Origin: a virus | IMG/VR virus record: IMGVR_UViG_3300028608_000007 | Coordinates: 62,001 to 126,000 of that record | Strand: one strand, 5' to 3' | Length of the DNA stretch: 64,000 nucleotides | Shown: positions 41,712 to 58,599 of the stretch, piece after piece | How positions within the stretch are numbered: position 1 is the stretch's first letter | Layout of the letters: every line of letters begins with the position of its first letter | Program-made: the position numbers and the translations under genes | Notes under the pieces: model-generated | Databases searched by the model: none | Seen by the model: only the letters and a program-made list of their open reading frames with translations | Told to the model about the DNA's origin: nothing

Positions 41712-42458
41712 TTACATCCTCGGAACCACTACCCCGGTTTGACCCTGATACTTGCCCCCACGGTCTTTGTACGAGGTTTCACAGGCCTCGTCAGACTCCA
41801 GGAACAGCATCTGCGCAACGCCTTCGTTGGCGTAGATCTTTGCAGGGAGGTTGGTGGTGTTGGAGAACTCCAGCGTCACGTGACCTTCCCACTCAGGTTC
41901 GAGCGGGGTGACGTTGACGATGATGCCGCAGCGAGCATAGGTCGACTTGCCCAGGCAGATGGTCAGGACATTCCGTGGGATGCGGAAGTACTCAACCGTA
42001 CGAGCCAGTGCAAAGCTGTTCGGTGGGATGATGCACACGTCGGACTTGATGTCCACGAATGCTTTCTCATCGAAGTTCTTCGGATCGACCGTTGCCGAGT
42101 TGATGTTGGTGAACACCTTGAACTCGTCAGCACAACGTACGTCGTAACCATACGACGAAGTGCCGTAGGAGATCAGTTTGTCTGTCCGATTGTTCAGGAC
42201 CTCGTTCTTGACGAATTTACTACGAACCTGACCGTATTCGAACGGTTCGATCATTGGCTTGAAGCCGGTACGAATCGGATCGTCTTCCTTCAAGCGCACA
42301 GCCCAGAAGCGAGCCTCCAAGCTTTCCAGTTGGTCTTTGGTGTGAGTGATACCTTCCCACGCCGGTTCCTTGATCTCACTCGAACCCGGCTTTACGTACA
42401 ACAGGTGGGTTGGTGGAACCGATTTACGGCGAATCCATTTGTCTGGTTTGATGCTCAC
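41712..42458 (-). CDS. dcd: dCTP deaminase
   Basis: The 248-residue protein matches dCTP deaminase, which converts dCTP to dUTP as a route to dUMP for thymidylate synthase. Signatures are [11 protein letters not shown] (98-108), GKSTYARCG (170-178) and [14 protein letters not shown] (187-200), with E197 at the position of the catalytic glutamate. E. coli Dcd has 193 residues; the extra part is N-terminal. The GTG start overlaps the upstream stop (GTGA). I saw no separate dUTPase in this window; some relatives combine both activities, but that cannot be told here. Confidence 0.88.
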
Positions 42459-43063
42459 GTTAACAGTTCCTTGATTGCATTTTCGAGAGTGAGGGAAGGA
42501 GTAACGAAAGCTACGATGCCTTCATGCTGGGTGAAGATACGCAGGCTCTCTTTGATTTCTGGAAGCGAGTCTTCTACGTCGAAGCTAACAAACACGACAG
42601 ACGAGTTGATCTCTTCGAGGATCTCAATGAGCTGTTCAGCACTGTGTTCCAGTTCCTCGAATACACCTTCTACGTTGGCGTGTACCTGCTCGATGTCTTC
42701 GAAGGTGACGTAGACCACCGTGGTATCACGGGTGTCCAGTGCGCGGTGATACGCATCGAGTAGTAGACCGCTCTTTACAGTTTTCGTGACGGTGCTGCGG
42801 TGCCCAAGGTAGTCGTATGTTTCTTCCTCGATCGGCCACATGGCGGACTTTGGGAAAGGATACACACGACCATCAGGGAGTTTGGTGATATACAGACCAG
42901 ACTTCAAAAGCTGGGTGACCAGCAGGTCTTGACCAATGAAGGGTCGAGCATCAGGATCAATCCCGTGATCGCCCCCACCGGTCATGTTGTAGTGCTTACC
43001 GATCTCCAGCGGATTGCCACGAAACAGTTTCTCCTGCTCGCGACTCATAGATAGCTTAGCCAT
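42455..43063 (-). CDS. Hypothetical protein, 202 residues
   Basis: The product begins [19 protein letters not shown]-terminal stretch from about residue 115 is rich in Glu and Val and alternates helix and strand ([38 protein letters not shown]). It is soluble and acidic. No family is recognised. It overlaps both neighbours and is upstream of dcd. Confidence 0.6.
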
Positions 43064-43448
43064 GTTCTTTATTACCCCCAGTCAGCTTTTCGTAAAGCTC
43101 TTTCAAGTCAGTGAAGAAGAGTTGCTTCTTGTAGCCGGTGGTTTTGAACATCTCAGCCACCTCTGCCGCCATTTCGTCGATCGTGGTTTCGCTCCCCTTG
43201 GAGATCGCACGGTAGTAGACTTGATGACGAGAGAAGCTGTGGTGCATGTCACGCGGATTGATGCCTTCCACGTTACACGCAGAATCCACACGTTCCTTAA
43301 AAGGAATGCGGGATTCTTCTTTGCTTTGCGTCATGAAGATCACGCTGGCAAAGCTTTCGTTATTCGCCACTGACAACGATTGACGCAAACTACCGAGTTG
43401 TACCTCGATAGGGTAAACAAAGTCTTTCGGGTAATCTGTTACGAACAT
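43056..43448 (-). CDS. Hypothetical protein, 130 residues
   Basis: The start at 43448 has GAGGTC upstream and overlaps the previous gene by 10 bases. The product begins MFVTDYPKDFVYPIEVQ, is soluble, and ends in a basic, glycine-containing tail (LTGGNKEHG). No family is recognised. Confidence 0.58.
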   Translation of the reverse strand: MFVTDYPKDFVYPIEVQLGSLRQSLSVANNESFASVIFMTQSKEESRIPFKERVDSACNVEGINPRDMHHSFSRHQVYYRAISKGSETTIDEMAAEVAEMFKTTGYKKQLFFTDLKELYEKLTGGNKEHG

Positions 43449-43903: not shown

Positions 43904-44176
43904 TCAGTAAGCCGCCATACTTGCGTTGGAGGTTTCGCAGATGGTGATCTTCACGTACTTCTGACTGATCAACTGGTAGACCTTACAGTCACCAATGGTC
44001 GCAATCAGTTCGTAGTTGTCGGCCATGATCTGCGGATTAGCCAGCGCTGCCTTACGGAACTCTTTCTGTTCCGCCTTGGCTAACATGGCCAAACTAACAA
44101 CCATCGAGACTGCTATCAGCGCGTAGAGGGGCCACCAACGTTTCAGATGGATACCCGCCCATTCACCGAAGCTCAC
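43904..44176 (-). CDS. Membrane-anchored protein, 90 residues
   Basis: A GTG start at 44176 overlaps the upstream stop (GTGA). The N-terminus MSFGEWAGIHLKRWW is followed by a hydrophobic helix (PLYALIAVSMVVSLAMLA), then a polar domain with two cysteines (IGDCKVY, ITICET). The layout suggests an inner-membrane anchor with a periplasmic domain, where the cysteines could form a disulphide. It is coupled to the TAXI-like periplasmic protein upstream. Confidence 0.6.
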   Translation of the reverse strand: MSFGEWAGIHLKRWWPLYALIAVSMVVSLAMLAKAEQKEFRKAALANPQIMADNYELIATIGDCKVYQLISQKYVKITICETSNASMAAY

Positions 44177-45057
44177 TGGCGCACAGCTTTCAGGTTGCTG
44201 TTGATGGCTTTGGCCACAGCACGTTTGACGTTGCGACCTTCTTTCTTCTCGAGGTCAGCGTGCCACGAATTGTTGTACACCACTTGGGCCGACATGCAGT
44301 AGGTGCTGATGTTGGTCCAGGCGTTGTCCGACGGAATGCCCGAGTCACCTTTGTTGTCGATCTTGCAAGCGAAGTACAGAGGGTTCTCGTTGCGATCTTT
44401 GGCTTTGCCGAAGGCCGAAGCTTTGATCTCACCGATGCTCAATGTTTCCTTGAAGTCGTCAGTGATTTCATTGGTGATCAGACCAGGCCGACCCACATAG
44501 ATCATGCCACCGACTTCGATACGGATACCTCCTTTCATGGTGAAGCCTTGGTTCACAGCTTCAGCGGCCGAATACCAATCGTCGAATTCGACGGTCTTGA
44601 TATTCTTGAAGTCTTCCGAGACGTTACCGAAGTTACGCACGGTTACTTCTGCGCCAGAGCCCGAAACGAAGGCAACCGCCCGGACGAGGTTTTCTTCATC
44701 CTTCATGTCATCGAAGTTCTTGACGCCAGTCTTCCCGTGAATCCAGAAGACCGCCTCGGTGTGAGCGTTGGTCACCGCGATATCTCGCGGCAGACCCAAG
44801 GAGGTTACCGCGTCAGCCTGCATGATGGCCATGACGCAGTCGCCTTCCTTCATCAGTTGGGCGTTCTCGACAGAGCCGCCAGTGTTGACGACATCCAACT
44901 TGGCGCCGGTCTTGCGAGCAATCTCGCCGCCGATGGTTTGACCTAGGGCTTCGTACGCACCGCCTTCACCACCCGTGCAGAAGGTGAGGTCTTGTGGGAC
45001 AGCAAGTACAGCAGTGGAAGCGATGGCCAGCAAGGCACCGATCAGGAAACGTTTCAT
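44173..45057 (-). CDS. TAXI-type TRAP transporter substrate-binding-like protein
   Basis: The 294-residue product has a clear signal peptide (MKRFLIGALLAIASTAVLA, cleavage probably after Ala19). Then comes FCTGGEGGAYEALGQTIGGE (residues 26-45) and VVNTGGSVENAQLMKEGDC (56-74), the hallmark of TAXI-family periplasmic binding proteins. Bacteria use these with TRAP membrane subunits; no such subunit is encoded nearby. Its start overlaps the upstream stop (ATGA), with GGAG upstream. It should be periplasmic after secretion. The role for a phage is unknown: metabolite capture, interference with host uptake, or sequestration are all possible. Confidence 0.82.
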   Translation of the reverse strand: MKRFLIGALLAIASTAVLAVPQDLTFCTGGEGGAYEALGQTIGGEIARKTGAKLDVVNTGGSVENAQLMKEGDCVMAIMQADAVTSLGLPRDIAVTNAHTEAVFWIHGKTGVKNFDDMKDEENLVRAVAFVSGSGAEVTVRNFGNVSEDFKNIKTVEFDDWYSAAEAVNQGFTMKGGIRIEVGGMIYVGRPGLITNEITDDFKETLSIGEIKASAFGKAKDRNENPLYFACKIDNKGDSGIPSDNAWTNISTYCMSAQVVYNNSWHADLEKKEGRNVKRAVAKAINSNLKAVRQ

Positions 45058-45803
45058 TGTTTTACTCCAGTGATTTTAGCGTTGTTATCGAGCAGGGTGA
45101 CTTTGAGTTCTGGACGACCATTGGCCAGATCAGGATTCTCGTGGCCGTCGTACTTGGTGATGTCGCCGTCTTGGCAAACAACATCCAAGTTGGTGAAACC
45201 GTTTTGCAGAAGAGCCCGGCGGATGATTTCAGTCACCTGGGTCTTACCGATACCAGGAATGCTACCGCGTACTTCGATTTCCAGAGCGGGCTCAGGGAGT
45301 ACCCGTACAGTTGGGGCTACACTCACTTCTTCTTCCTTCTTAGGAGGGTTGATTAAATCGAACGTGATGATCTTGGATACGGCACGTTCAGGCCAGGTGG
45401 TAACTTTGGTCAGACCACGCATTCCAAAGTGCAACACACCTTCTGGGTCTTCCAGAATCTTGCGCACCGCATCGCCATAGGGACCTGTCGGCATGAATCG
45501 AGCCGTCATGTGATCTTCATCCATTCCCATTGGGAAGTGGAGTCGACCGCAGACTTGCGAATCATCGATGGTGTGGATGCGCTTAATAGCTGCCTCGGCC
45601 GAGAACAGCTTCGGTTCACGAGAACGTGGAGCACCGTACTCCACATACATCTCGCGGCCTTCACGACAACGACTCACCCAGGCTTCGCGTACCGACTCAG
45701 CGTCGTATTGCAAGCCATTGCGAAATGGATCGCTGAATGCGCCGAGCACCACTTCGTACGTACCGTCAGGCAACAGACGAAGATCCTTTACTTTATTGGT
45801 CAC
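45054..45803 (-). CDS. Prohead-protease-like protein (tentative)
   Basis: The 249-residue product begins MTNKVKDLRLLPDGTYEVV. Its first 140 residues follow the layout of phage head-maturation proteases: YVEYGAPR near residue 55, a central IHTIDDSQVCGRL, RFMPTGPYGDAVRKIL, and HFGMRGL, where active enzymes usually have a serine in G-S-R-G. That serine is not visible, so activity is doubtful. A charged linker and a C-terminal helix-rich region follow. The GTG start overlaps the upstream stop (GTGA). The family call is low confidence. Confidence 0.4.
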   Translation of the reverse strand: MTNKVKDLRLLPDGTYEVVLGAFSDPFRNGLQYDAESVREAWVSRCREGREMYVEYGAPRSREPKLFSAEAAIKRIHTIDDSQVCGRLHFPMGMDEDHMTARFMPTGPYGDAVRKILEDPEGVLHFGMRGLTKVTTWPERAVSKIITFDLINPPKKEEEVSVAPTVRVLPEPALEIEVRGSIPGIGKTQVTEIIRRALLQNGFTNLDVVCQDGDITKYDGHENPDLANGRPELKVTLLDNNAKITGVKQ

Positions 45804-46100: not shown

Positions 46101-46634
46101 ATGACTGACTTAACCAAAGCCCCAAAACAGGTCATTATCGACCTGATCAATGCTGACAACACCCCGCTGGCACTGACCGAAGAGCTGATCACGTTTGGCC
46201 TTCCGACTGCTGCCACTGGTGAGAGTCCGCCGAAAAACACCGAGATCACCGTATCCGCCGCCGAAGGCAGTGGCTACTCTGGTTCGGTGGTTGTGACGTA
46301 CAACCGTGTTGCACTGTCGACCATTCCGACCATCGCCGCTGCACCTGCCGAGTTCCCCCTGGGTAACGCGCAGACCCTCAAGGACCTGATCCCCGAATTC
46401 AATGCCAAGTACGGCGTCAATCTGACCGACGACGACTACGTCGACGCTCCGATCCCGGAATTCACCGGTGGCCTGAACGAAGAGCACACTGTTCAGCTCG
46501 TTGCTAAAGCCGACTCGCTGATCTACATCGGCTCCGTCGACATCGTGGTACAGGGTGCTGACATCCCGCTGGCTTCCGTCCTGACCAACACCGCTCTGAA
46601 CGGTCTGGTTTACGAAGCGCCAGTGACTCCGTAA
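46101..46634 (+). CDS. Array protein A (two half-modules)
   Basis: The 177-residue protein begins MTDLTKAPKQVIIDLIN. It consists of two half-modules of about 75-85 residues. Each has a helix starting with L-x-x-x-I-N, a loop with LxLT or NLT and D/E, and ends with a strand pair in which S/A-x-x-x-Y-x-G-S-V precedes a hydrophobic V-x-V strand (SGYSGSVVVTYNRV; DSLIYIGSVDIVV). The same half-modules make up the ten or more proteins that follow. The start at 46101 has GAGAG upstream. A late-type promoter lies 49-71 bases upstream and a terminator follows, so it is probably a separate abundant transcript. A virion surface role is inferred. Confidence 0.7.
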   Translation: MTDLTKAPKQVIIDLINADNTPLALTEELITFGLPTAATGESPPKNTEITVSAAEGSGYSGSVVVTYNRVALSTIPTIAAAPAEFPLGNAQTLKDLIPEFNAKYGVNLTDDDYVDAPIPEFTGGLNEEHTVQLVAKADSLIYIGSVDIVVQGADIPLASVLTNTALNGLVYEAPVTP

Positions 46635-46649
46635 GAAACCCTGACGCTG

Positions 46650-46692
46650 AGCGGAGGAGGGGCTACGGCCTCTCCTCCGTTTCTGCTGTTTT
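46650..46692 (+). terminator. Hairpin terminator
   Basis: CGGAGGAGGGGC-TACG-GCCTCTCCTCCG forms a long stem, followed by TTTCTGCTGTTTTC. It ends the transcript of array protein A, at least partly. Confidence 0.8.
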
Positions 46693-46721
46693 CAAGCACT
46701 TCGACTTCCAGGAGTTAACCA

Positions 46722-47516
46722 ATGAACCTCTTACCGGGATCGTCCGAAGCTGCGCTGCTCGAACTCGTCAATCAGGCCAACAGTCTGGCTCAACCCCTAG
46801 AAGTAGGGGACTTGTACTTCGGCAAAGTCAAGACTTTGTCAGGCGGGCTGGTTGAGATCCCTGCTGTAACGATGTATGACAGCGCGTATGAGGGCTACGT
46901 CAAGTTCCGCTACCAGCGCCTGAGTCTCGCCAAAGCGTTCGGTACTATCCGTCCACAACTGCGCGACATCGGTTACCCAACCCTCCACCAACTGTTACCT
47001 GTCATCAACAAAAAGCTTGGGATCAACCTTGAGCCTGTTGATGTGGTCGATGTCCAATTCGACTGGCTGGGTAACAACGAACAACTGAACATCCAGATTA
47101 CCGCAACGGCGAACTCACTGGGTTACGAAGGCTCCTTCATTGTGACCTTTACTCGTGTTCGCCCGATGTTGAACAAGGTAGTGGCCGCTACTACCCTGGA
47201 TGTGTTGAAGCACCACACTACCCCAGTGACTGGTACGCTGGCGCTGGCTATGGCCACCTACTCGATCGACTTCACCGACGAGAAGAATTCGCTACCGATC
47301 TACGCACCCTACAGATACTGGGCCAACATTGGCGCAACGCGGACTCTCTTGGCCAGCTACGGTTTCCCAAACTGGCCTCAGGCACAAATCGGTACGCTCA
47401 AGTGGGGGCTGACTTCTAGTTTCCCCGAAGCGAATCAAAGTTTCAAGAACGTGATCATCCACCCCAACCCGAATATTGCGGGCTACACGGGTGACGCTTA
47501 CCTCCATTACAACTGA
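46722..47516 (+). CDS. Array protein B (three-part)
   Basis: The 264-residue protein starts at ATG 46722 after CAGGAG. It has the two half-modules (ending in SAYEGYVKFRYQRL and NSLGYEGSFIVTFTR) plus a third, C-terminal part of about 90 residues that ends in GYTGDAYLHYN. The third part also contains a FTD segment and an aromatic stretch. The same order occurs in C, D, E, F and H. It probably works in the virion with the other array members. Confidence 0.68.
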   Translation: MNLLPGSSEAALLELVNQANSLAQPLEVGDLYFGKVKTLSGGLVEIPAVTMYDSAYEGYVKFRYQRLSLAKAFGTIRPQLRDIGYPTLHQLLPVINKKLGINLEPVDVVDVQFDWLGNNEQLNIQITATANSLGYEGSFIVTFTRVRPMLNKVVAATTLDVLKHHTTPVTGTLALAMATYSIDFTDEKNSLPIYAPYRYWANIGATRTLLASYGFPNWPQAQIGTLKWGLTSSFPEANQSFKNVIIHPNPNIAGYTGDAYLHYN

Positions 47517-47533
47517 TCCTTAGAGGTGTCGCA

Positions 47534-48367
47534 ATGGCTCTTTATAAGACACCGAAGGCTGCGATCATTGGTTCGATCAAAGCGTTGAACGGTGGCGTGA
47601 CTCTGATCGAGTCCGAATACGTCTTCGGTAACCCGGTTCCGGTAGCTCCTGCAAGCGACGGCACCAACACCACCATCCTGATCTCTGCCAAGGACGCATC
47701 CAGTACCTTTGACGGATCAGTGACGGTTCGCTACACCCGACTGGATCTGGCTGACTTACTCAAACTGGTTCCAGCGTCCCTGAGTCTCCCACCGGTCACT
47801 ACCGTTTGGGAATTTGCTCAAGCCTTCAACAAAACTTACGGTACAGCATTCGAACAAGGTGACTTGGTCGACGGTCCGTTGAACTTGGCCAGCGGTACTG
47901 GTGTGGTGACGTTAACCGCACAAACCAACTCGTATGGTTGGACAGGTACAGTAGAGTTCACTGTGCAACCTGGTCGTTTCCAGATGAACCAACTGGTAAC
48001 GGTCACCACGTTGCCTGGTTTGAACTTCCCTGATCCTTACGAGGGTAAACCCTTCGGCTGGGCTTACAGTTACTGGCGAGACTTCTCTCCGCTGGAACCT
48101 GTGTTGTCATCCATCGTTGTTGAGTCGGTGGACTGGGAAAGTATTGCTCAGGCAATCACTACCCTGACTAACGACCCATGGGTAATCACTGGTCAGAATC
48201 GTTTCTCGTTGAGCGGTGCGACTCTGGAGTACAACGGACTGACTACCGGAACTGAACAAGCCAACTCGGACTACGAGAGCGTGATGATTATCCGGCTGGG
48301 TGCTGACTGCTTGGGCTACAGTGGTCGTCTGTTCCTCCACTACACTCCGGCTGAGACCGACATCTAA
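47534..48367 (+). CDS. Array protein C (three-part)
   Basis: The 277-residue protein begins MALYKTPKAAIIGSIKAL after GAGGTG. The half-modules end in STFDGSVTVRYTRLDL and NSYGWTGTVEFTV; the C-terminal part contains VTTLPGLNFPDPY, a WRDFS segment and ends in GYSGRLFLHYTP. It is 10 bases upstream of D. The function is not known. Confidence 0.68.
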   Translation: MALYKTPKAAIIGSIKALNGGVTLIESEYVFGNPVPVAPASDGTNTTILISAKDASSTFDGSVTVRYTRLDLADLLKLVPASLSLPPVTTVWEFAQAFNKTYGTAFEQGDLVDGPLNLASGTGVVTLTAQTNSYGWTGTVEFTVQPGRFQMNQLVTVTTLPGLNFPDPYEGKPFGWAYSYWRDFSPLEPVLSSIVVESVDWESIAQAITTLTNDPWVITGQNRFSLSGATLEYNGLTTGTEQANSDYESVMIIRLGADCLGYSGRLFLHYTPAETDI

Positions 48368-48377
48368 GAGGTGATCT

Positions 48378-49154
48378 ATGGATTCCAAAGAGAAACTCTT
48401 GGACCTGATCAACGACCTCAACCAACCACAACGCGAACTGAATGACATCAACGTTCGGTTCACTGGGATTGTACCAGCAGACGAGTCGGGTGCAACAGTC
48501 CTGACTGTCGCTGGTGTTCCAGGACGTGGTTATTCTGGTCAAGTTGATCTGACGTACAGTCGTCTCAACCTCACTGAGATTCTGGACGGTAAGACGGTTC
48601 GTACCCCTGACCCCCAAACCCCCGATTCATTCTTGGAGTTGGTGAACAACGCTTACAATCTCTTCCTGACGGCGATTGACGTCGGAGAGATCACCATCCC
48701 AGAGTTGGGTGAAGGTGAGTACGCGCAGTTGACTCTGGAAGCGAGTCCTGACTCGTTGGGTTTCGTTGGTGTTGCGACTGTCCGGTTTGAGTTCGGTAAG
48801 TCATGGTTAGAGCAGGTGATCGGTAACCGTAACCTGCAAGAGCTGACTCATCCGGTGAAAGTTGACTACCGAATGTCTGCCCGGATGGTAACGTGGAACA
48901 AGGACTTCACTTGTGTCCGGGACGCCATGGCTCTGACCAAGACCCGAGAGTATACCAACTGGCCGGTGATTCAAGCGGCTGCTACTTACATGGGCATCCC
49001 TGCTTGGTCTCCGCATTACCTCGTGGACAAAGCGACTTCGGAAGTTCCCGACGCTAACCCTGAGTTTGATCGTGTGGTGATTCAGGCTGTTCACGATAAC
49101 TCCAAACTCTTGGGTCCGATCTATCTCCACTACAACGTCCTCGAAGAGATTTAG
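48378..49154 (+). CDS. Array protein D (three-part)
   Basis: The 258-residue protein begins MDSKEKLLDLINDLNQP. Half-modules end in RGYSGQVDLTYSRLNL and DSLGFVGVATVRF; the C-terminal part has the usual WNKDFTCV segment and ends in LGPIYLHYNVL. The stop is 2 bases before the start of E. Confidence 0.68.
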   Translation: MDSKEKLLDLINDLNQPQRELNDINVRFTGIVPADESGATVLTVAGVPGRGYSGQVDLTYSRLNLTEILDGKTVRTPDPQTPDSFLELVNNAYNLFLTAIDVGEITIPELGEGEYAQLTLEASPDSLGFVGVATVRFEFGKSWLEQVIGNRNLQELTHPVKVDYRMSARMVTWNKDFTCVRDAMALTKTREYTNWPVIQAAATYMGIPAWSPHYLVDKATSEVPDANPEFDRVVIQAVHDNSKLLGPIYLHYNVLEEI

Positions 49155-49156
49155 TA

Positions 49157-50113
49157 ATGGCCATTTATAAGTTTCCCCCGAAACAAGAGGTTTACGACCT
49201 CATTAACCAGGCGAACCCTGGTTTGACCAAACCGCTGACGGCAACCAACTGTGTGCTGGCAAACCCGGTGGTGATCGCTAACGCTGTGTACCCTGCATCG
49301 AACTCCTCGATCGTGGTATCCCCAGCACCAGGTAACAACGACTACATCGGCAAACAAACGCTGAAGTACAACCGTCGCGACCTGTCCAAGATGTTCCGTG
49401 GTATTACGGTACTGGTCAAGAAGTACGCAGCACGCAACCCGGTTACTGCTGGTCAACTGGCTTTCACCATCTTTGAACTGTTGCCTGACATCAACCGCCT
49501 GTACGGTCTGAACCTGACTGAGGATGACGTCAACACCGGTAATATCCTGCGTGGCTCTACGCTGGAGAATGGTCAGTACACCACCACCGTGACGGTCACC
49601 ACCAAAGCAACCTCTTTGGGCTACATTGGTTCCTTCGCTCTGAAGTGGCTCAACACCCCACAGAGTTTTGTGGACATGATCACCAGTCTGGATCTGGATG
49701 GTCGTAAGTTCCCAGGTGGTAACGTGTTCGATGAAACGCATCTTCCGATCCTGTCGGGTGAAGCGTATCGACTAGACTTCACGCAGACGCTGATCACGGC
49801 CGGGTACACACCACCGGTGTTCGCAAAATCAAACTTCTCGTGGAACTCTACGTGGATCAACGTCTATGCGGCGTTGACAGCAGCGATCAACGCGGTCTCC
49901 GGTGGCCGTACTAACCTGCGCGGTTACGTGGCTGGGGAGAACTACAAAACTCACCCAGGTAGCATTGTGGGAATGCAACACCAGTGTGTCAGTCTCCCTA
50001 GTACCGAGTTCCCTCAACTCAACAGCCGTTTCTATAACCGCTGCTTGATCGTCTTTGTACCAGATGATTGTCCGTGGGCGGCGGGACACATTATCCACCA
50101 CTTCAACGTTTGA
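49157..50113 (+). CDS. Array protein E (three-part)
   Basis: The 318-residue protein begins MAIYKFPPKQEVYDLIN. The half-modules end in NDYIGKQTLKYNRRDL and TSLGYIGSFALKW; the C-terminal part is longer than in B-D and ends in AAGHIIHHFNV. It is the largest three-part member apart from H. Codon use looks like that of its neighbours. Confidence 0.68.
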   Translation: MAIYKFPPKQEVYDLINQANPGLTKPLTATNCVLANPVVIANAVYPASNSSIVVSPAPGNNDYIGKQTLKYNRRDLSKMFRGITVLVKKYAARNPVTAGQLAFTIFELLPDINRLYGLNLTEDDVNTGNILRGSTLENGQYTTTVTVTTKATSLGYIGSFALKWLNTPQSFVDMITSLDLDGRKFPGGNVFDETHLPILSGEAYRLDFTQTLITAGYTPPVFAKSNFSWNSTWINVYAALTAAINAVSGGRTNLRGYVAGENYKTHPGSIVGMQHQCVSLPSTEFPQLNSRFYNRCLIVFVPDDCPWAAGHIIHHFNV

Positions 50114-50123
50114 GGACTAGGCT

Positions 50124-51005
50124 ATGTCAGCTTACATGCAAGAATCGAAGCGTAGCCTTCTCAACTACATCAACGCCAAGAACGCTACCACGTTGGCCAT
50201 GACCGATGTGGAATTCAGCGCCCCATCGGTAATCAACGGGACGTGGCGCGGCGTGGCAAACCCGCATAACACTGCGGTACGTTTGACGGCTTCTGCTACC
50301 AGCATCTACCAAGGCACTGTTGTGGTGACGTACGACCGACTGGACCTCAAAGAGATCATCAAGATCGGTGGGTTCACGTTGCGTGCCGACCACCCAACCA
50401 GCGCACACCAATTGATGGATACGCTGGCTACTTATAACGGACTGAACTTTACCACTGACGACATTGAAGACAGTCCCGTTACCGACAACGGCAATGGTAC
50501 CTACACCGTAACCTTGACTGCAAAGCCAGGTTCTTACGGTTGGGTTGGTAGTGTCACCATCGAGAACTTTGGTCAAGGTGGTGCTCCTCTGGACCGCGTG
50601 CTGTCTGCTAACGACATGCCTGGTTTGAACTACCCAACCAGTTCGGATGCCGACGTGTACGGTGCCCTGTACCTGTACTCCTACGACTTCACCGATTTCT
50701 ACGATCTGTTGTTAGATCTGGAAGAAGGTGTACCTCTGACTGGACAACAGGCTGTAGACCTCGCCGCTGCGATCAACCTGTACGACGTGTCGACCGGTGC
50801 AGGTGCATGGAACGCTTCTTCCGAACAAGCAGCGTGGTCCCTACAAGGTGCGGTGCCGTTCTTCAACGGACTCAACACTCCTGAGTTGCTGACCAACAGC
50901 AACTACAAATACGCTCTGCTCTTGGATCTGCGTCCAGGTGTCACCATGCCGAAAGGTCGGATGGCCCTGCACTACAACGATCCGATTGATAGCGGTTCCG
51001 TCTGA
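50124..51005 (+). CDS. Array protein F (three-part)
   Basis: The 293-residue protein begins MSAYMQESKRSLLNYIN after GAGGAC. Half-modules end in SIYQGTVVVTYDRLDL and GSYGWVGSVTIENF; the C-terminal part contains a SYDFTDFYDLL segment and ends in KGRMALHYNDP. A terminator-like hairpin follows before the next gene. Confidence 0.68.
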   Translation: MSAYMQESKRSLLNYINAKNATTLAMTDVEFSAPSVINGTWRGVANPHNTAVRLTASATSIYQGTVVVTYDRLDLKEIIKIGGFTLRADHPTSAHQLMDTLATYNGLNFTTDDIEDSPVTDNGNGTYTVTLTAKPGSYGWVGSVTIENFGQGGAPLDRVLSANDMPGLNYPTSSDADVYGALYLYSYDFTDFYDLLLDLEEGVPLTGQQAVDLAAAINLYDVSTGAGAWNASSEQAAWSLQGAVPFFNGLNTPELLTNSNYKYALLLDLRPGVTMPKGRMALHYNDPIDSGSV

Positions 51006-51008
51006 CGC

Positions 51009-51031
51009 ATGGGCCTTCGGGCCCTTTTAGG
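51009..51031 (+). terminator. Terminator-like hairpin overlapping the next ribosome binding site
   Basis: GGGCC-TTCG-GGCCC is followed by TTTT and then AGGAG, the ribosome binding site of the next gene. The T-tract is short, so some read-through is likely. Confidence 0.6.
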
Positions 51032-51039
51032 AGATCCTT

Positions 51040-52068
51040 ATGTTAAGGGCTGCTATTGGTTTCGAACACTGCGTCAAGAACGTAGTGGATACTTGGATGG
51101 CACAATCTGGTTGGGCCATCACGCGTCACCCTCTTTTCCCGACTTATGGTAAAGGATTGATCGTCAACAACGATGGATGGCTGACCGTTCCAGAAGGCAT
51201 TGCGCCAGGATCAGAGTCGTACGCACACATCGACTTACGCCCACTGTTGGACAATAGCGGTAGAGCTACGGCAATCGCATTTGGTTATCGAGCCAAGTTG
51301 GTGAAACCGGCTGTTGCTGGTTTGGGTAACCTGTGTTTGTGGGGTTCAAACCCAAGCACTACGGGCACTCACGCACTGGCAACCTTTGCCAACTTGTTTC
51401 CTGCTGGTAGTCCAGAAGGAACCGAGTGCCTGGTTGAGATTGTGCTCGATCTGGTTTCGACCTATCGCTACACCTACGTCAACGGAGTGATGTTAGGTTC
51501 CGCCATCTACAACGGACTCAGCACCGCGCTTATCAAAACCGGTGACTTCGGCATCTATTGGTCACCGTGTCCTGCCAACACCGCAGGCTATGTGGCAATC
51601 CGTGATATCTGGGTAACCGACGATCTACCCGGTGACGGTATGTCGGGTCGTTTGGGCGACATGAAAGTCCGTCCGTTGACCCTGACATCGGCAGTGGGTA
51701 ATGGTTGGGCTGCCTCTGATGGTGGTTCTCTGTTGGCTGCTCTGACTGCCCCGACTGACAAGGTCAATCCGGCGTTGGTTGAATCTAGCCTCGGCGCTGG
51801 AACCCTGGATTTGAAGTTTTCTTCAGCGCTTCCAAACAACGATGCAGTGCAAGCTATCCAATTAATCCTCAACGCAAAGGGTAGCAGCAACAACGCTGCG
51901 GCCGATGTGTCGATGGAACGTAATGGGATTGTTTCGCCCAAACGTCGCACTCAATTGGACCTTGCCTTGAAAGGGCGATCCATGCGGACGTGGCCATTAG
52001 CACCGGACGGCAGTCGCTGGTCCAACGCCAACTTGGCTGAGACCACGATTAAAATCACTCCAGAGTAA
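51040..52068 (+). CDS. Second-family protein G
   Basis: The 342-residue protein begins MLRAAIGFEHCVKNVVD and does not have the half-modules. It resembles the proteins at 53,930 and 55,000: a region rich in beta strands with IAFGYRAKL and YRYTYVNGVMLG, then GDGMSGRLGDMKVRPL near residue 195, WAAS, and a C-terminal segment ending in NANLAETTIKITP. This looks like a jelly-roll or lectin-like domain. It may be a virion surface or receptor-binding protein. No signal peptide is present. Confidence 0.62.
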   Translation: MLRAAIGFEHCVKNVVDTWMAQSGWAITRHPLFPTYGKGLIVNNDGWLTVPEGIAPGSESYAHIDLRPLLDNSGRATAIAFGYRAKLVKPAVAGLGNLCLWGSNPSTTGTHALATFANLFPAGSPEGTECLVEIVLDLVSTYRYTYVNGVMLGSAIYNGLSTALIKTGDFGIYWSPCPANTAGYVAIRDIWVTDDLPGDGMSGRLGDMKVRPLTLTSAVGNGWAASDGGSLLAALTAPTDKVNPALVESSLGAGTLDLKFSSALPNNDAVQAIQLILNAKGSSNNAAADVSMERNGIVSPKRRTQLDLALKGRSMRTWPLAPDGSRWSNANLAETTIKITPE

Positions 52069-52074
52069 TTGTCA

Positions 52075-53079
52075 ATGACCACTATCCGTAGCCTTCCGGC
52101 ATACGCGTTAAGTCGGTCAGCGGGTCGGACGCAAGCGCGTAGTGTCTTCGGGTATGCTCTCGTAGATACCAGTGGGAAACTACCGCGTCCGGCTGGCGAC
52201 ACAGACTATCGCAAGCCCGAGCAGACGCTGCTCAAAGAACTGATCGTACAGGCCAACCCTGATGCTTTCACAAACATTGACCCCAATCAAATTGCCTACG
52301 AGGCGCCAGTTGCACTGCCTTATACTCGGGGCGATGAGTCAAACACCACCATCGTTGCTAAGGCTGCACCGAATGCTCTGGATGTGGTCGGTCGTCAGAC
52401 TCTACGATACCGTCGGATCGACCTGTCCAAACTGTTCCGCTACCAGACCATTGAGCTGACCCGCTACAGTAACGTGAATACCTTGCCTTGGGCTGAGGTT
52501 CAGGAACTGCTGCTCAAGCAACATGGCATCAACGTTTCCTCCAGCACGTTTACTCCAGTTACTCTGAACGTGAACGCCACTACCACGCTCACCGCGTTGG
52601 CTACGTCCCAGTGTTACATAGGGGCGATTGCAGTAGTGTGGCGTAAAGGACGTCGAGAGATCAGTGAAATGTTCTCAACCGCTACCTTAGACGGGCGAGC
52701 GTGGCCAGAAGGTTTGATTCAGTTCGGTGATACGTACAAACCACAAGGTGAGTACATCGCTTACGACTTTGACTTCACCGATCTCATGGGTACTTCTTTC
52801 AACTCCTGGGGTAACAACACCTTGACTTCGGGTCAGGCTGAATTGGATAAGTTAGCAGCGGTGTTAAACACTGTTGCTCCTCAGTACAATTGGAACAGTC
52901 TTGACTATTCCGTGGACAACGTGGGTGGCTTGAAGAACCTGTTATTCAACCGTTACGCTATTCCAAACGCAGCGGTACCCGAAGCCAACAGCGGACTGTT
53001 TAACCGAGTGGCAGTTTTGGCTCCCACTATTGGGGACGCTTGGTTCTATGGTAAACTGTTGTTCCACTACAAGGTGTAA
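52075..53079 (+). CDS. Array protein H (N-terminal YAL repeats plus three-part body)
   Basis: The ATG at 52075 is preferred over an in-frame TTG six bases earlier; the ribosome binding site is weak. The N-terminus has two repeat-like units (IRSLPAYALSRS, ARSVFGYALVDT), also seen in protein M. The body has half-modules ending in DVVGRQTLRYRRIDL and QCYIGAIAVVW, and a C-terminal part with YDFDFTDLM that ends in YGKLLFHYKV. It is 334 residues long. Confidence 0.65.
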   Translation: MTTIRSLPAYALSRSAGRTQARSVFGYALVDTSGKLPRPAGDTDYRKPEQTLLKELIVQANPDAFTNIDPNQIAYEAPVALPYTRGDESNTTIVAKAAPNALDVVGRQTLRYRRIDLSKLFRYQTIELTRYSNVNTLPWAEVQELLLKQHGINVSSSTFTPVTLNVNATTTLTALATSQCYIGAIAVVWRKGRREISEMFSTATLDGRAWPEGLIQFGDTYKPQGEYIAYDFDFTDLMGTSFNSWGNNTLTSGQAELDKLAAVLNTVAPQYNWNSLDYSVDNVGGLKNLLFNRYAIPNAAVPEANSGLFNRVAVLAPTIGDAWFYGKLLFHYKV

Positions 53080-53082
53080 GCC

Positions 53083-53574
53083 ATGTCTATTTACAACGAT
53101 TCACGTTTGGACGTGTTGGCATGGTTTAACAAAAAAGCTGGCACCAAGTTCACCCTTGATGACGTGATCTTCAGTAAGCCCATTGTCAACACCGACCCTG
53201 GAGCTACACTGAATTCCAAGATCCGCGTCACCATGGCCCGGACCAACACGGCGTATAAAGGGACGGTCGTACTAGCCTACAACCGTCTCACCTTGGCCAA
53301 TATCGGGAACTACCCGCGTCCTAAGTATCCGCCCCAAGCACCGGTCGGATCTTCTGTATACGACTTGTTACCCAAGCTGCGCAACACTTACGGCATCTAC
53401 CTCACTCGGGACGATCTCGAAGAAACCTTCGTCACTGATGATGGGGCGTACGGGCGAATTTTACTCAAGGCGAAAGCAGACTCCATAGGTTGGAATGGCG
53501 AGTACACCTTGGTGCTCTCCTCGAAGATTCCATTGGCCGATCTGTTCAAAACCAAATCCATTAACTGGAGTTAA
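53083..53574 (+). CDS. Array protein I (half-modules only, partner of J)
   Basis: The 163-residue protein begins MSIYNDSRLDVLAWFNK and ends just after the second half-module (SIGWNGEYTLVL...FKTKSINWS). The C-terminal part found in B-F and H is missing, but the next gene encodes exactly that part. The stop is followed after 3 bases by the start of J. It therefore looks like one half of a split three-part gene. Confidence 0.65.
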   Translation: MSIYNDSRLDVLAWFNKKAGTKFTLDDVIFSKPIVNTDPGATLNSKIRVTMARTNTAYKGTVVLAYNRLTLANIGNYPRPKYPPQAPVGSSVYDLLPKLRNTYGIYLTRDDLEETFVTDDGAYGRILLKAKADSIGWNGEYTLVLSSKIPLADLFKTKSINWS

Positions 53575-53577
53575 GAC

Positions 53578-53928
53578 ATGCCTATCATCGATCCGTACTG
53601 GGCAAATTATTTCTTCCGTCTGGCTCTGACTGGTTACGATGACATTCTCTCGGACTTCAAAACCGGAGACATCATCACCCCGGAAACTGGCGAGTTGTTA
53701 GCGCTGGCGCTGAACGAGAAAGACAAGAAAGAAGGCAAGGGCCAATGGCACAGTGAAGTGGAACTACCCGAGTGGTCCCTCGCTGGTTGCTTTGTGTTCT
53801 TCCACGGTGACAACAACACCGGTCTGCCAACCAAAGGCAACATGCAGAAAGTGTTGATCCTGGACTTCCCGGAAGAATCCGTGAAGCCAGTAGGTCGCAT
53901 CTTCCTGACTTACAACGTGGGAGGTTGA
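53578..53928 (+). CDS. Array protein J (detached C-terminal part)
   Basis: The 116-residue protein begins MPIIDPYWANYFFRLAL after GGAG. It corresponds to the third part of the three-part array proteins: an aromatic YFFRLALTGY in place of the FTD segment, a WHSEV...WSL stretch, and the ending VGRIFLTYNVGG. It has no half-modules of its own. Separate translation with I would restore a full protein as a complex. Confidence 0.65.
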   Translation: MPIIDPYWANYFFRLALTGYDDILSDFKTGDIITPETGELLALALNEKDKKEGKGQWHSEVELPEWSLAGCFVFFHGDNNTGLPTKGNMQKVLILDFPEESVKPVGRIFLTYNVGG

Positions 53929-53929
53929 G

Positions 53930-54988
53930 ATGGCCCTTCGTGATATTGAACCCTTCCTGAACCTCTCACACCAGTATTCGGCAACTATCGGACAGGGCTA
54001 TACTGCTGTCCTGTCGGGCTGGAACATTCCGTACTTGGTGTACGGTGGGGACACTAACAGTTACGCTCGCGTAACCTCTTTGGACCTTATTGATGGATGG
54101 TTGGTCCTGAGTAGTATTGGTTCAGTTTCGGGTAACCGTTGCATGGCGGTCGGACGACCCTTGCAGTCTGCCGGTATCAACGTAGACGATAACACCGTAG
54201 CTTTCGGTGGTGCTCGGTTGAAGTTTGCCCGTTCCATTCCTCGAACCGTGATGACCATACAAGGTGCGGCGGCGGTGGAAGTTATTGCCTCCACCGCGAT
54301 TGCTGGTAACTTCCAACTCAATACTGAGTACTACGTTGAGTGGTGTATCGACATGGCGAACAGCTTATTCAGGGCGCGGGTCGATGGTGTGGAAGTTGCT
54401 GCGGTAGCACTGTCAGCGGCGGTCAAGAACGCTCTGAAAGCAGGTACCAACTACCTGATGTGGGGAACCTATAACTCCGGCAGTAGCAGTGCGTTGGAGC
54501 TGTGGCTCAAAGACGGTTACGTTCTTGAGAAAACCCCAGATGGTCAAATGTCTGGCTGGTTAGGTCCACAGACTGTCAAGGTGTTGCCGGTTTCGGAATT
54601 CAACGGTCCTTGGGCTGCGAGTTCGGGAACGCCAAAAGATGTCTTGAACACCCCGACTACCAGTGCGGCTGACCGGTTGACGCCTTTGGTAACCACTGAT
54701 GTTAATGCGTCGGAAGCCATCCTGAAGTTCGATGCGTCTCAGGTGACTGGTTTCATCAAGGGGATTTCGCTCAACGTGGCGATGCAAAAGGCGCCAGGCA
54801 AATTAGGTAACTTAGAATCGTCGATCACCTCCGCAGGCGTCGAGAGTAGCAAGTCGTCTGCCACGGCCGCAAACGCCATGGCGATGTATACCCGACAGTT
54901 ACTCTCTAGCAAAGCACCTAACGGCGGTGCTTGGACTATCGAGAGTCTTGCTGCTGCAACCGTCAAACTCAAACCCGTCAATAGTTAA
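53930..54988 (+). CDS. Second-family protein K
   Basis: The 352-residue protein begins MALRDIEPFLNLSHQYS after GGGAGG. It shares with G and L a beta-rich N-terminal region, a DGQMSGWLGPQTVKVLPV segment near residue 205, WAAS, and a C-terminal segment ending in IESLAAATVKLKPV. It starts 1 base after J. A lectin-like or receptor-binding domain is possible but unproven. Confidence 0.62.
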   Translation: MALRDIEPFLNLSHQYSATIGQGYTAVLSGWNIPYLVYGGDTNSYARVTSLDLIDGWLVLSSIGSVSGNRCMAVGRPLQSAGINVDDNTVAFGGARLKFARSIPRTVMTIQGAAAVEVIASTAIAGNFQLNTEYYVEWCIDMANSLFRARVDGVEVAAVALSAAVKNALKAGTNYLMWGTYNSGSSSALELWLKDGYVLEKTPDGQMSGWLGPQTVKVLPVSEFNGPWAASSGTPKDVLNTPTTSAADRLTPLVTTDVNASEAILKFDASQVTGFIKGISLNVAMQKAPGKLGNLESSITSAGVESSKSSATAANAMAMYTRQLLSSKAPNGGAWTIESLAAATVKLKPVNS

Positions 54989-54999
54989 AGGGGGCTACC

Positions 55000-56106
55000 A
55001 TGGCCAAAGAAGTAAGACCGATTGGTATCGAACACCTCGATGACTGGTTCGGTAACCCACGGGTAGGTGCGGGGTTCTTGCATACCGGTTGGGACATGTA
55101 CACCGTTAAGCAAGGTGCCCACCAATTGATGTCAATCTTTAAGAAAGACGCTCAATTGCGCTATGGCTTGATGGCGGCAGGAACCAACGGATCGGCCGAG
55201 GGGATGGTTCAGATTCTTAACCGAACGCTGTGGGCCAACCGTAGTGACATCGCAAAAGCGTGTATTGGTTTCCGGTATAAACCAGGTAACCGTACGCCCT
55301 CAGCGGCTATCCCGATTGGCATGAAGCTCGATCGGGTAACTGGGGATGGGGGGGCTAGTGCCGATAACGTCATTTACACTTTCCCAACGACCCAGGGTGA
55401 GGCCTATTTCGAAATTGAAATCATCCCCTACGACGGTGTGGCCGGGTATGGTTTTACCGTCTACCGTGATGGAGACCAGATTGCCACGGCTGCAATGGGC
55501 TCTTGGTTCACTCGAGCAGCTTGGCCTGCCTGCCAGTTTGCCATTGGTAGTGCTACGTTGGTGCACGCCGCGCAGGTTAATGGTTGGCTACAGGGCGATT
55601 ACATGTTCTCGTGGGAGGACATGTATGTGGCTTGGACTACGGACCAAACTGAGAAAATCCGTTTGGGACCAATTCGTGTGAAGCGGCTACCGTACGAACA
55701 AGTAGACTTATCAAACTGGACGGCTCAGGGTGGTAAAACTGCTCTGGATATTCTGAACCTTACGAACAACAGTGCTAATAAGCGCACCGATTATCTGTCC
55801 AGCGACCCTGCCAACAGCGTACTTAAGTGCAAGTTGGATCTCTCGGGTCTTAAGTCCAGTGATCAGGTGTTGGCTCTCAGCGCTATTACGTCCGCGTGGC
55901 GCGATGGTGGCACCGTGGGCAATCTGAACGTTCGTTGGGATCACACTGATGGTCAAAGTGCTGCTTCCGCTTACACTCCTACCAGCGACGTGTATACACA
56001 GCAATTCGATAAGCAGGTACCAGTTCTAACCCAAACCCCAGGTGGAGCTGCTCTCACCAAAGCCTCCATGGCCGCACTGGAGCTGGTGGTCACTCCTAGC
56101 GCGTAG
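55000..56106 (+). CDS. Second-family protein L
   Basis: The 368-residue protein begins MAKEVRPIGIEHLDDWF after AAAGGGGG. It shares the general layout of G and K: a beta-rich first half (YGFTVYRDGDQIATAAMG), IRLGPIRVKRLPYEQVDLS near residue 225, a WTAQGGKTALDILN stretch, and the C-terminal LTKASMAALELVVTP. Similarity to G and K is weaker than between those two. Confidence 0.6.
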   Translation: MAKEVRPIGIEHLDDWFGNPRVGAGFLHTGWDMYTVKQGAHQLMSIFKKDAQLRYGLMAAGTNGSAEGMVQILNRTLWANRSDIAKACIGFRYKPGNRTPSAAIPIGMKLDRVTGDGGASADNVIYTFPTTQGEAYFEIEIIPYDGVAGYGFTVYRDGDQIATAAMGSWFTRAAWPACQFAIGSATLVHAAQVNGWLQGDYMFSWEDMYVAWTTDQTEKIRLGPIRVKRLPYEQVDLSNWTAQGGKTALDILNLTNNSANKRTDYLSSDPANSVLKCKLDLSGLKSSDQVLALSAITSAWRDGGTVGNLNVRWDHTDGQSAASAYTPTSDVYTQQFDKQVPVLTQTPGGAALTKASMAALELVVTPSA

Positions 56107-56113
56107 GTGAACT

Positions 56114-56866
56114 ATGTCATTCAATCTTCGTAACGCCCCGGCGTACGCGGCGATTCCGGTTGAGCAGAAGATCAACCTACGTAACGCTCCTGTTTACGCT
56201 ATCGTTGCAGAAACACCAGCGGCACAAATCCGTTCCACCAGCATGTTTGTGCTGGCAGAGACGCCGCCGTATGTCGACCTGCGTAAAGTCTCAGTGTTTG
56301 TTCTGGAAGCGGCAGTTTCTCCTTCCTTGTTCTCAAGTCTCAACGGGTTAGAGACACTACGCTTGGCCATCAAAAAGGAACTCGGTGTTGTTGTCACTGA
56401 TGCTTTGGCAACCTTCGGGAACCCTGTGGCCATCACCAGTGGATATAACACCGCTGTGACATTGGCGGCAAATCCGAACTCTGACTTCCAGGGTACCGTA
56501 ACAATCCAGTACAACCGGTTCAAACTCGAAGAAGCATTTAAAGGAAAGAATACTTCTCAGGTTATCGGTGGTGCTACGTCGATCCATGGTCGCTTAGCGG
56601 CGATCAACGCGTTCTTCGGATTGAAGTTGGAACCTCGGGATGTGGTCGATCGGACGTTGTTACCAGACACTCCGGGCTTTACACTGCGGGTGGCAAATAC
56701 CAGCTACCTGTATCAGCCAGGTACCACGATTCTCATCGGTCAAGAGGTTACCAATGACCTTGGTACGCTGATTGAAGTGGATCAGATGGACGGCTTCTCG
56801 GTGACCACTAGCCTGGAAGACTGGATTCAAGTTACTGCAATGAATGGATTCGAGCCAGCGACTTGA
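56114..56866 (+). CDS. Array protein M (YAL repeats plus half-modules)
   Basis: The 250-residue protein begins with short repeats: NLRNAPAYAAIPVEQ, NLRNAPVYAIVAETP, RSTSMFVLAETPP and DLRKVSVFVLEA within the first 70 residues. The first half-module follows and ends in SDFQGTVTIQYNRFKL; the second is shortened (LRVANTSYLYQPGTTIL). The tail ends in AMNGFEPAT, and array protein P ends in QMNGFEPEA. It is the last gene before a convergent terminator. Confidence 0.65.
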   Translation: MSFNLRNAPAYAAIPVEQKINLRNAPVYAIVAETPAAQIRSTSMFVLAETPPYVDLRKVSVFVLEAAVSPSLFSSLNGLETLRLAIKKELGVVVTDALATFGNPVAITSGYNTAVTLAANPNSDFQGTVTIQYNRFKLEEAFKGKNTSQVIGGATSIHGRLAAINAFFGLKLEPRDVVDRTLLPDTPGFTLRVANTSYLYQPGTTILIGQEVTNDLGTLIEVDQMDGFSVTTSLEDWIQVTAMNGFEPAT

Positions 56867-56867
56867 C

Positions 56868-56898
56868 GGCATAGAGGGAGGCCACCGCCTCCCCTTAT
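56868..56898. terminator. Bidirectional terminator with GCATA/TATGC arms
   Basis: GGCATAGAGGGAGGC-CACC-GCCTCCCCTTATGC forms a stem extended by the GCATA/TATGC arms between two convergent genes. Confidence 0.82.
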
Positions 56899-56900
56899 GC

Positions 56901-57350
56901 TCAGAGCTTACGGATCGTCAGATCCACGGCGCCCAGGTAAACCCAGCTACCGTCTTTGGCCAGCAGTTGCAGCGTCTTGCTTTCGCCAGCAGCCGTTGGT
57001 AACACCGCACCGGTTTCGAACTCCAACTCACCAGCGATCAGTTTGTAGCGATCAGCGATGAGGGTGATGATGCTCTGGAGTGTGTCACCCGTTTGCAGCG
57101 TGTAGGTGGTCGACTTGACGATCTCTTCGATATACAGACGACGGTAGTTCAGCGTCTGCGTACCGTAGAACTCGTTGTTCAGAGTTGCTTCCACCGTGAG
57201 GGACGAATTCTTCACGGTGATGTCGCCGCTGGTGTCAATCTGAAGCAGGTCCTTAAGGACGAAATCATCGAGAGTAAACGACGTGCCGTTGGTCTCGTTG
57301 ATCTGGTTGATGACGTTCTGAAGCGGGCTTAAAGTGTGATCAACTAGCAC
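56901..57350 (-). CDS. Array protein N (two half-modules, inverted)
   Basis: The only array member on the minus strand in this block. A GTG start at 57350 has AGGAG 8-9 bases upstream and gives a protein that begins at the same point as its paralogues; a longer frame to 57410 has no such site. Half-modules end in NEFYGTQTLNYRRLYI and GSWVYLGAVDLTI. It has 149 residues. Its inversion implies separate transcription from the rest of the array. Confidence 0.63.
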   Translation of the reverse strand: MLVDHTLSPLQNVINQINETNGTSFTLDDFVLKDLLQIDTSGDITVKNSSLTVEATLNNEFYGTQTLNYRRLYIEEIVKSTTYTLQTGDTLQSIITLIADRYKLIAGELEFETGAVLPTAAGESKTLQLLAKDGSWVYLGAVDLTIRKL

Positions 57351-57460
57351 GTTGATAACTCCTGTTGTAGTAGGGACGTCTATAACGATAGGTGCTCGGC
57401 GACGTATCATTTGACGGGACTTAAACCCAAACCCATTTTCTAAATGCAGGCGTCTTTGCC
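57351..57460. other. Divergent intergenic stretch
   Basis: About 110 bases between array proteins N and O. On the minus strand CGTTATAGACG near 57,376-57,386 shares TTATAGAC with the 45,986 region and may be a promoter. The plus-strand side has no clear late-type element. No small gene is visible. Confidence 0.35.
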
Positions 57461-57991
57461 ATGTACCACATTGGAATGAAATCAGTAGAGCAGTTACTCG
57501 CTCTACTTAACGACACCAACGGGTTGTCGTTAACACTTGATGACATCCAGTTCAGTACGCCAGTTGCGCTGACCCCAGAGTCTCAGGTAGGCGACGACAA
57601 TCCTGCCAACACCGAGATTCTGATTGTAGCCAAACCTAATCGAAAACCGATTGGTGAGGTGAAGGTTCGGTATGATCGGATTGATCTGGCTGACTTTGAA
57701 ACCCTACGTGACCCGACGGAAATCGAAGTCACACTTCCTTTGACCCACGCCCGGTTAATGGAAGCATTCAATACCCATTACGGTTCTGCGTTAGAACTGG
57801 AAGACATTGATGTCGCCACTGTCCTACCTGAAGACATTGAGGAAGAGACCTTTGTTGAGCTGAAAGCCTCTGTAGGCTCCTTGGCTTATCGAGGGGAGAT
57901 CCTGCTGTCTGTGATCCCAGGTACGATCAAACTCAGCAATGTGATCATTGTACGAGCGCTCAGTGGCCTTGAGTATATGGGTCGACCTTAA
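57461..57991 (+). CDS. Array protein O (two half-modules)
   Basis: The 176-residue protein begins MYHIGMKSVEQLLALLN. The helix-and-loop NDTNGLSLTLDDIQF closely matches protein N (NETNGTSFTLDDFVL), suggesting these two are recent relatives. Half-modules end in KPIGEVKVRYDRIDL and GSLAYRGEILLSV. The exact start (57461 or a Met five codons later) is uncertain. A terminator follows. Confidence 0.63.
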   Translation: MYHIGMKSVEQLLALLNDTNGLSLTLDDIQFSTPVALTPESQVGDDNPANTEILIVAKPNRKPIGEVKVRYDRIDLADFETLRDPTEIEVTLPLTHARLMEAFNTHYGSALELEDIDVATVLPEDIEEETFVELKASVGSLAYRGEILLSVIPGTIKLSNVIIVRALSGLEYMGRP

Positions 57992-57993
57992 TA

Positions 57994-58017
57994 GAGGGGC
58001 CTTCGGGCCCTTTTATG
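57994..58017 (+). terminator. Rho-independent terminator
   Basis: AGGGGCC-TTCG-GGCCC is followed by TTTTATGCC. It ends the transcript of array protein O. Confidence 0.82.
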
Positions 58018-58027
58018 CCAGACTTTC

Positions 58028-58051
58028 TGTGTATTTTTTAATATCTTATGA
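58028..58051 (+). promoter_or_regulatory. Candidate late-type promoter, TTTTTTA...TATG
   Basis: GTATTTTTTAATATCTTATG lies 43 bases upstream of array protein P. It closely resembles GTAATTTTTTATCGTATTGTATG upstream of array protein A. TATG is the core reported for late promoters of phiKZ-like phages. Confidence 0.55.
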
Positions 58052-58092
58052 GTAGGACATACGTCTTACTCTGTTTACCTGTGGAGATCCCC

Positions 58093-58599
58093 ATGAAAAT
58101 CAATGTCGCTCAAACTGGTGCCGAGAACATTCTGGCTCTGGTCCTGGACGCCAACCCTGGTCTGTCGCTGACCGCTGCTCAGTTCACTCTGGGCAACCCA
58201 AGCGTATTCGTGGGTGCTGGTGGCCGTAACACTCAGGTTACCCTGACTGCCGTCGAAGGTGAAGGCAAGACTGGTACCAAAACCATCGACTACACCCGTC
58301 TGAACCCAGTGACCGGCCCTAACGCCGCTCAAGCTGTGTCTGGCGTACAAGTCGCTCTGGACGCCACTGACGTACAGATCAAAGCTCAACTGGTTGCCCT
58401 GTTCGGCGCAGTTGCTGCTGATGTCGTCGTCTCCGGCCTGGTCCTGCCAGTAGATGCTGACACCGACGGTGAAATCGTTTTCGCCGCCGCTGCCAACAGC
58501 CTGCTGTACGTGGGTCAGACCACCGTCGTGCTGAAAGCTCCGGTTGAAGACCTGAGTGGCATCGAAGGTCAGATGAACGGCTTCGAACCTGAAGCCTAA
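58093..58599 (+). CDS. Array protein P (two half-modules, likely abundant)
   Basis: The 168-residue protein begins MKINVAQTGAENILALVL after GGAGATC. It has the half-module layout with diverged sequence (NPGLSLTAAQFTLGNPSVF, NSLLYVGQTTVVL) and the tail QMNGFEPEA, like protein M. It is alanine- and valine-rich with strongly biased codons. It has its own late-type promoter and terminator. These points fit an abundant structural or decoration protein, which is inference. Confidence 0.68.
   Translation: MKINVAQTGAENILALVLDANPGLSLTAAQFTLGNPSVFVGAGGRNTQVTLTAVEGEGKTGTKTIDYTRLNPVTGPNAAQAVSGVQVALDATDVQIKAQLVALFGAVAADVVVSGLVLPVDADTDGEIVFAAAANSLLYVGQTTVVLKAPVEDLSGIEGQMNGFEPEA

Follow-up and report, generated by a model that had tools for sequence, protein, structure and literature searches.

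An array of DUF7941 paralogues with lectin-like partners in a phiKZ-related jumbo phage

Analysis of a 64,000-nucleotide stretch of viral DNA (the window; G000:C1:62001-126000, from a virus record totalling 180,543 bases) revealed twelve genes of the DUF7941 family (PF25613), carried on 13 open reading frames between positions 46101 and 58599. We propose that this array encodes an external and most likely head-borne docking and decoration set that presents exchangeable adhesin domains; the probability of this reading is roughly 0.52. By profile similarity, the array and paralog family B of phage SPN3US are homologous, so that the array is of a known kind rather than a new one. New here, judged from the loci compared, are a fixed-order core of seven full-length members, the seventh being split, found in the clade of the window, and a second, lectin-like family, which an unrelated family replaces in the SPN3US clade. 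Based on its homologues of phiKZ gp128, gp130, gp139, and gp157, the source is a phiKZ-related jumbo phage.

Results

Members of the array

In a Pfam profile search, the curated cut-off of PF25613 was passed by 12 of the 13 open reading frames. The exception, J, comprises the C-terminal part only; it was found with a family profile built here (E 2e-23; E-values of this profile come from small local databases and serve for ranking only) and resembles F (36% over 109 aa, E 6e-17). I and J are counted as one member in two pieces. The DUF7941 members also correspond to phrog_1037, and the PHROG matches of the array members are virion structural proteins. A preliminary description of this DNA had proposed a paralogue array consisting of A–F, H, I/J, and M–P and called for an all-against-all comparison. 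This comparison was run and linked the members to one another, while none of 3,200 shuffled array proteins reached E 0.01. The array is thus real, and its DUF7941 members had been listed correctly, but a second, unrelated paralogue family (G, K, and L) had been left out. The genes are as follows; slots denote positions in the seven-member core.

46101..46634, +: A, two-unit DUF7941 (PF25613, E 1.5e-35); the reading frame could start at 46050
46722..47516, +: B, full-length DUF7941, slot 1 of the seven-member core (PF25613, E 5e-39; slot-1 clade)
47534..48367, +: C, full-length DUF7941, slot 2 (PF25613 match; slot tree)
48378..49154, +: D, full-length DUF7941, slot 3 (PF25613 match; slot tree)
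49157..50113, +: E, full-length DUF7941, slot 4 (PF25613 match; slot tree)
50124..51005, +: F, full-length DUF7941, slot 5 (PF25613; model pLDDT 90; N-terminal half similar to phiKZ gp127 in 9xqd)
51040..52068, +: G, lectin-like partner family (related to K, L, and FLC9 proteins)
52069..53079, +: H, full-length DUF7941, slot 6, with about 45 extra N-terminal residues (PF25613; slot tree)
53083..53574, +: I, N-terminal two-unit half of the split slot 7 (PF25613 match)
53578..53928, +: J, C-terminal domain of slot 7 with its own start and GGAG upstream (built profile; similarity to F; split conserved in the clade)
53930..54988, +: K, lectin-like partner, residues 1–215 predicted as a ConA-type jelly roll (family membership and model)
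55000..56106, +: L, lectin-like partner (family membership)
56114..56866, +: M, two-unit DUF7941 with an N-terminal extension of about 80 residues (PF25613, E 5e-20)
56901..57410, -: N, two-unit DUF7941 on the opposite strand (PF25613, E 5e-16)
57461..57991, +: O, two-unit DUF7941 (PF25613, E 1e-28)
58048..58599, +: P, two-unit DUF7941 (PF25613, E 1e-13)

Gene A probably starts at 46101, since in the longest reading frame the homologous part extends only from residue 18 onward.

The closest named relative of gene F belongs to Burkholderia phage FLC9 (40% protein identity). Two IMG/VR contigs, L001 and L002 (240 and 244 kb), carry the same array with F 85–87% identical, and a DNA-level search against phages gave no match. 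A further 18 window-clade loci and 11 SPN3US-clade loci (SPN3US itself among the latter) were gathered, so that the window clade comprises 22 loci together with the window, FLC9, L001, and L002. The pattern for the collection scan was derived from a narrower alignment; an alignment of all window paralogues yielded none.

Domain layout and the split seventh gene

The repeated half-module claimed in the preliminary description was recovered by hhalign, which aligned the profiles of units 1 and 2 with P = 3.8e-7 and a probability of 93%. The third, C-terminal part matched the two units with probabilities of only 6% and 2%. By these profile comparisons, units 1 and 2 truly repeat each other within the protein, and the third part forms a domain of its own. 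Seven members carry this domain (B–F, H, and I/J in its split form), not six as first described. The model of F (mean pLDDT 90) is confident in residues 1–150 and 180–286 and less so in the linker at about 150–178, which fits two domains. Compared with PDB structures, the C-terminal domain of F gave weak matches (Z under 3), and no fold was assigned. Matches of C and F to Spiralin, Invasin_D3, and similar Pfam families lay below the cut-off and were disregarded.

All 22 window-clade loci show six full-length members followed by a seventh in two pieces, one a two-unit protein and the other a protein of the C-terminal domain; at locus L025, the first half of the split member is fused to slot 6. 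The slot order is fixed, and a tree of 11 representative phages resolved seven position-specific clades (support 0.85–0.997). In the window, I and J share a reading frame and are separated by TAA plus one codon. Throughout the clade, the split falls at the inter-domain linker. As its frame and spacing vary among the loci, the split is not a sequencing error. The array of FLC9 (gp317–326), annotated only as hypothetical proteins, belongs to the same clade and has the same order of six full-length members and a split seventh with the same lectin family; it differs in a lectin-fused slot 2 and in larger multi-lectin proteins (567, 562, and 1156 aa). Nine of the 11 SPN3US-like loci have seven full-length, unsplit members in a row, and the other two have nine.

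Selection and neighbouring genes

Between the window and L001, dN/dS was 0.05–0.18 in every gene where it could be computed, which rules out hypervariation of the DUF7941 genes. Their products are mostly 75–95% identical to those of L001 (M, 74%), while K and L are 64–65% identical to L001 and 54% and 49%, respectively, to L002. The DUF7941 genes are under purifying selection, and K and L diverge fastest. The term "diversified" applied to the array at first hence suits the fast-evolving lectin-like K and L, but not the DUF7941 paralogues.

The opposite strand carries, immediately upstream of the array, a Peptidase_S80 (PF20034) prohead protease gene (45054-45803, -). Its product is only 55% identical to that of L002, against nearly 90% for the neighbours. 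It adjoins a gene for an NMT1/TAXI-like periplasmic solute-binding protein with an apparent signal peptide (44173-45057, -; PF16868, phrog_6856), which is present in L002 (89%) and was not found in the portion of L001 compared. Elsewhere in the window are genes for a glutathionylspermidine synthase (24654-25973, -), a thymidylate synthase (26886-28550, -; 554 aa), and a NAMPT (32447-34492, -; 681 aa); the NAMPT gene adjoins one for PRPP synthetase, the two forming an NAD salvage pair (32447-35313, -). Thymidylate synthase and NAMPT each extend about 150–170 residues beyond the family profile. Reading of these inserts revealed no clear intein motifs.

Lectin-like partners

G, K, and L are paralogues of one another, unrelated to DUF7941, and interspersed in the array. 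Relatives occur in every window-clade locus, with 2 to 7 per locus; none were found in the 11 SPN3US-like loci examined. Residues 1–215 of the K model (pLDDT 78), which was built on an alignment of 15 rows, form a jelly roll with Z 12.8 to TtX122B and about 10.4 to legume lectins. K is accordingly predicted to have a ConA-like lectin/LamG fold, and family membership would place G and L in the same class. The FLC9 relatives match Laminin_G_3.

Slot 2 is fused to a lectin domain in FLC9 gp323 and at loci L023, L024, L028, and L030, and further DUF7941-lectin fusions occur at L019 (lectin first) and L029 (twice). In the SPN3US-like phages, a family of the gp146/147 type takes the place of the partners and is fused to DUF7941 in gp145, gp148, and gp151. 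Homology of G, K, and L to SPN3US gp146/147/149/152 was rejected, given the lack of profile similarity (hhalign probability 0.1–0.2%). An anchoring module with exchangeable exposed domains would be expected to look like this, with a docking family that stays constant while its partners are swapped and can be fused to it.

phiKZ gp127 and a second locus

A search of the PDB with the DUF7941 family profile gave a sole match, phiKZ gp127 in entry 9xqd ("The structure of outer peripheral region in the phage phiKZ baseplate complex", released 2026-02-11); a paper describing this entry was not found in the literature searched. The gp127 chain comprises 150 residues, up to residue 150, and corresponds to the two-unit half. 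The F model matched chain 0 of 9xqd with Z 9.7 over 137 residues, the next best match having Z 4.2. The same entry contains gp157, gp130, and gp139, all three with homologues in this phage. phiKZ gp126 and gp127 thus share family and fold with array member F. Two more phiKZ proteins, gp158 (L013:12469-13419; E 5e-8) and gp143 (L014:37694-38227; E 1e-12), look like distant members by the built profile.

The gp127 orthologue of this phage lies outside the window (G000 41821-43083), between homologues of gp128 and gp139 and with a gp126-like gene; gp82, gp83, and gp84 form a comparable neighbourhood in SPN3US. In the tree, the gene of this second locus groups with gp127 and away from the array (support 98.9). 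Orthology to gp127 and synteny with gp128 therefore hold for the second locus and not for the array, and a baseplate site for the array by simple transfer from 9xqd was rejected. While phiKZ has no array, this phage possesses the array in addition to a single, separately encoded copy of the baseplate type.

Discussion

The preliminary description called an array of this size unusual for a phage, which is correct, but the case of SPN3US, with 17–21 members, had been published before. Family B of SPN3US consists of gp83, gp138–154, gp160/161, and gp237 (PMC5105663, PMC5694885). We take its tandem array to be gp138–154, using the relation that the gp number is 266 minus the RefSeq locus number, which fits the masses and gene names checked. 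Like the array of the window, it contains DUF7941 proteins, opens with seven full-length members, includes fusions to partner domains, and is accompanied by further members elsewhere in the genome. In contrast, its seventh member is unsplit, its partners are of the unrelated gp146/147 type rather than lectin-like, and there are 17 or more members instead of 12. Its slots are not one-to-one orthologues of those in the window, so duplications differ between the two clades. Among the SPN3US proteins (L011:26081-27400 and L050:170-2347), gp154 combines one two-unit module with a 274-residue domain that has few relatives, and gp155 (725 aa) carries two such modules.

The assignment to the virion, and mainly to its head, draws on SPN3US. 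The 17-gene family was found in virions and in tailless heads by mass spectrometry (PMC5105663, PMC5694885), and another tailless mutant, a cleaner one, again gave 21 family B proteins in the head, with gp237 moved to the tail (PMC10052503). More than 300 copies per capsid are present of each of gp141 and gp160. The list of reported substrates of the prohead protease does not include family B (PMC5694885), as expected if its members are added from outside, and a Hoc-like outer protein sits at the 260 hexamer centres of the T=27 capsid (PMC7552025). The abundant family B members are candidates for this protein. Presence in virions and tailless heads was thus established by others, for SPN3US only; the present genes contribute homology, domain layout, the seven-slot order, the predicted lectin fold of K together with Laminin_G_3 in FLC9, DUF7941-lectin fusions, purifying selection, and the separately encoded baseplate paralogue. 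Taken with the structural PHROG matches, this supports the surface or decoration system suggested in the preliminary description. The fibre role also suggested there was not borne out for the array; the gene for the family's baseplate member lies elsewhere in the genome.

Several observations argue against the head. phiKZ gp127, the sole DUF7941 protein whose position has been solved, is at the baseplate periphery. One copy per hexamer is at odds with the low abundance of most family B members, and the SPN3US array is devoid of the lectin family. Moreover, gp83 of SPN3US was listed as a head protein in 2017 (PMC5694885) despite its synteny with the baseplate proteins gp127/gp126, so the tailless-head assay may mislead. 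Solved capsids say nothing on the head position: 9xqd was the only profile match in the PDB, but no solved major capsid protein closely matches that of SPN3US, and phiKZ is without the array.

It is possible, if somewhat unlikely, that the array instead extends the baseplate periphery and tail-fibre network, each member docking like gp127 on a gp157/gp130/gp139 platform and carrying adhesins. The position of gp127, with its two-unit half ordered, the homologues of all three platform proteins in this phage, the re-assignment of gp237 to the tail (PMC10052503), and the lectin partners, typical of adhesion devices, are in line with this arrangement. However, gp127 finds its orthologue at the second locus, two independent tailless mutants retain the SPN3US array members in their heads but not the baseplate paralogs gp168–170, and more than 300 copies of gp141 are too many for a sixfold baseplate.

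Packaging with the DNA as internal head proteins that are ejected into the host appears quite improbable. The SPN3US authors labelled gp143 and gp160 "head ejection?" (PMC5694885), and SPN3US heads contain much internal protein (PMC7552025). Nevertheless, no processing of family B by the prohead protease was reported, it is not obvious what lectin-fold partners and their fusions would do inside a capsid, and phiKZ gp127 is external. That the array consists of duplicated genes of a non-virion or selfish kind with no structural function is hardly credible in view of purifying selection in all computable genes, a seven-slot order retained across divergent phages, and the detection of homologues in virions by mass spectrometry.

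In the favoured reading of an external, mainly head-borne set, each member has an N-terminal docking domain of about 150 residues with two pseudo-repeated units, to which seven members add a C-terminal domain via a flexible linker. The docking domains may attach the proteins to the virion exterior, mainly on the head, where they would present or scaffold exchangeable exposed domains, here the ConA-lectin-like G, K, and L. T4 Hoc is thought to bind glycans weakly, and the predicted lectin-like domains may bind host or environmental glycans in the manner of Hoc or other capsid decoration proteins. The likeness lies in the proposed external, modular, glycan-binding role, and SPN3US has one Hoc-like protrusion per hexamer; no sequence relation is claimed, and many paralogues stand here in place of a single protein.

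More speculatively, and with low likelihood as a whole, the seven-slot core might form a hetero-oligomeric external head scaffold that includes the Hoc-like protrusion, shares ancestry with the gp127 baseplate module, and carries lineage-specific adhesins (lectins here, the other family in SPN3US-like phages). If true, these phages would possess a head-borne adhesion apparatus parallel to that of the tail.

Family B accounts for about one fifth of the known virion proteins of SPN3US (20 of 86; PMC5694885). The phiKZ baseplate entry of 2026, the head proteomics of SPN3US, and the lectin fusions together lead to a first concrete model for this family, in which one docking module would be used at two places of the virion, with exchangeable adhesins. 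The model names testable candidates for the Hoc-like protein of SPN3US. The position solved for the phiKZ homologue is at odds with the classification by tailless heads, so that assigning the family to the head warrants direct testing.
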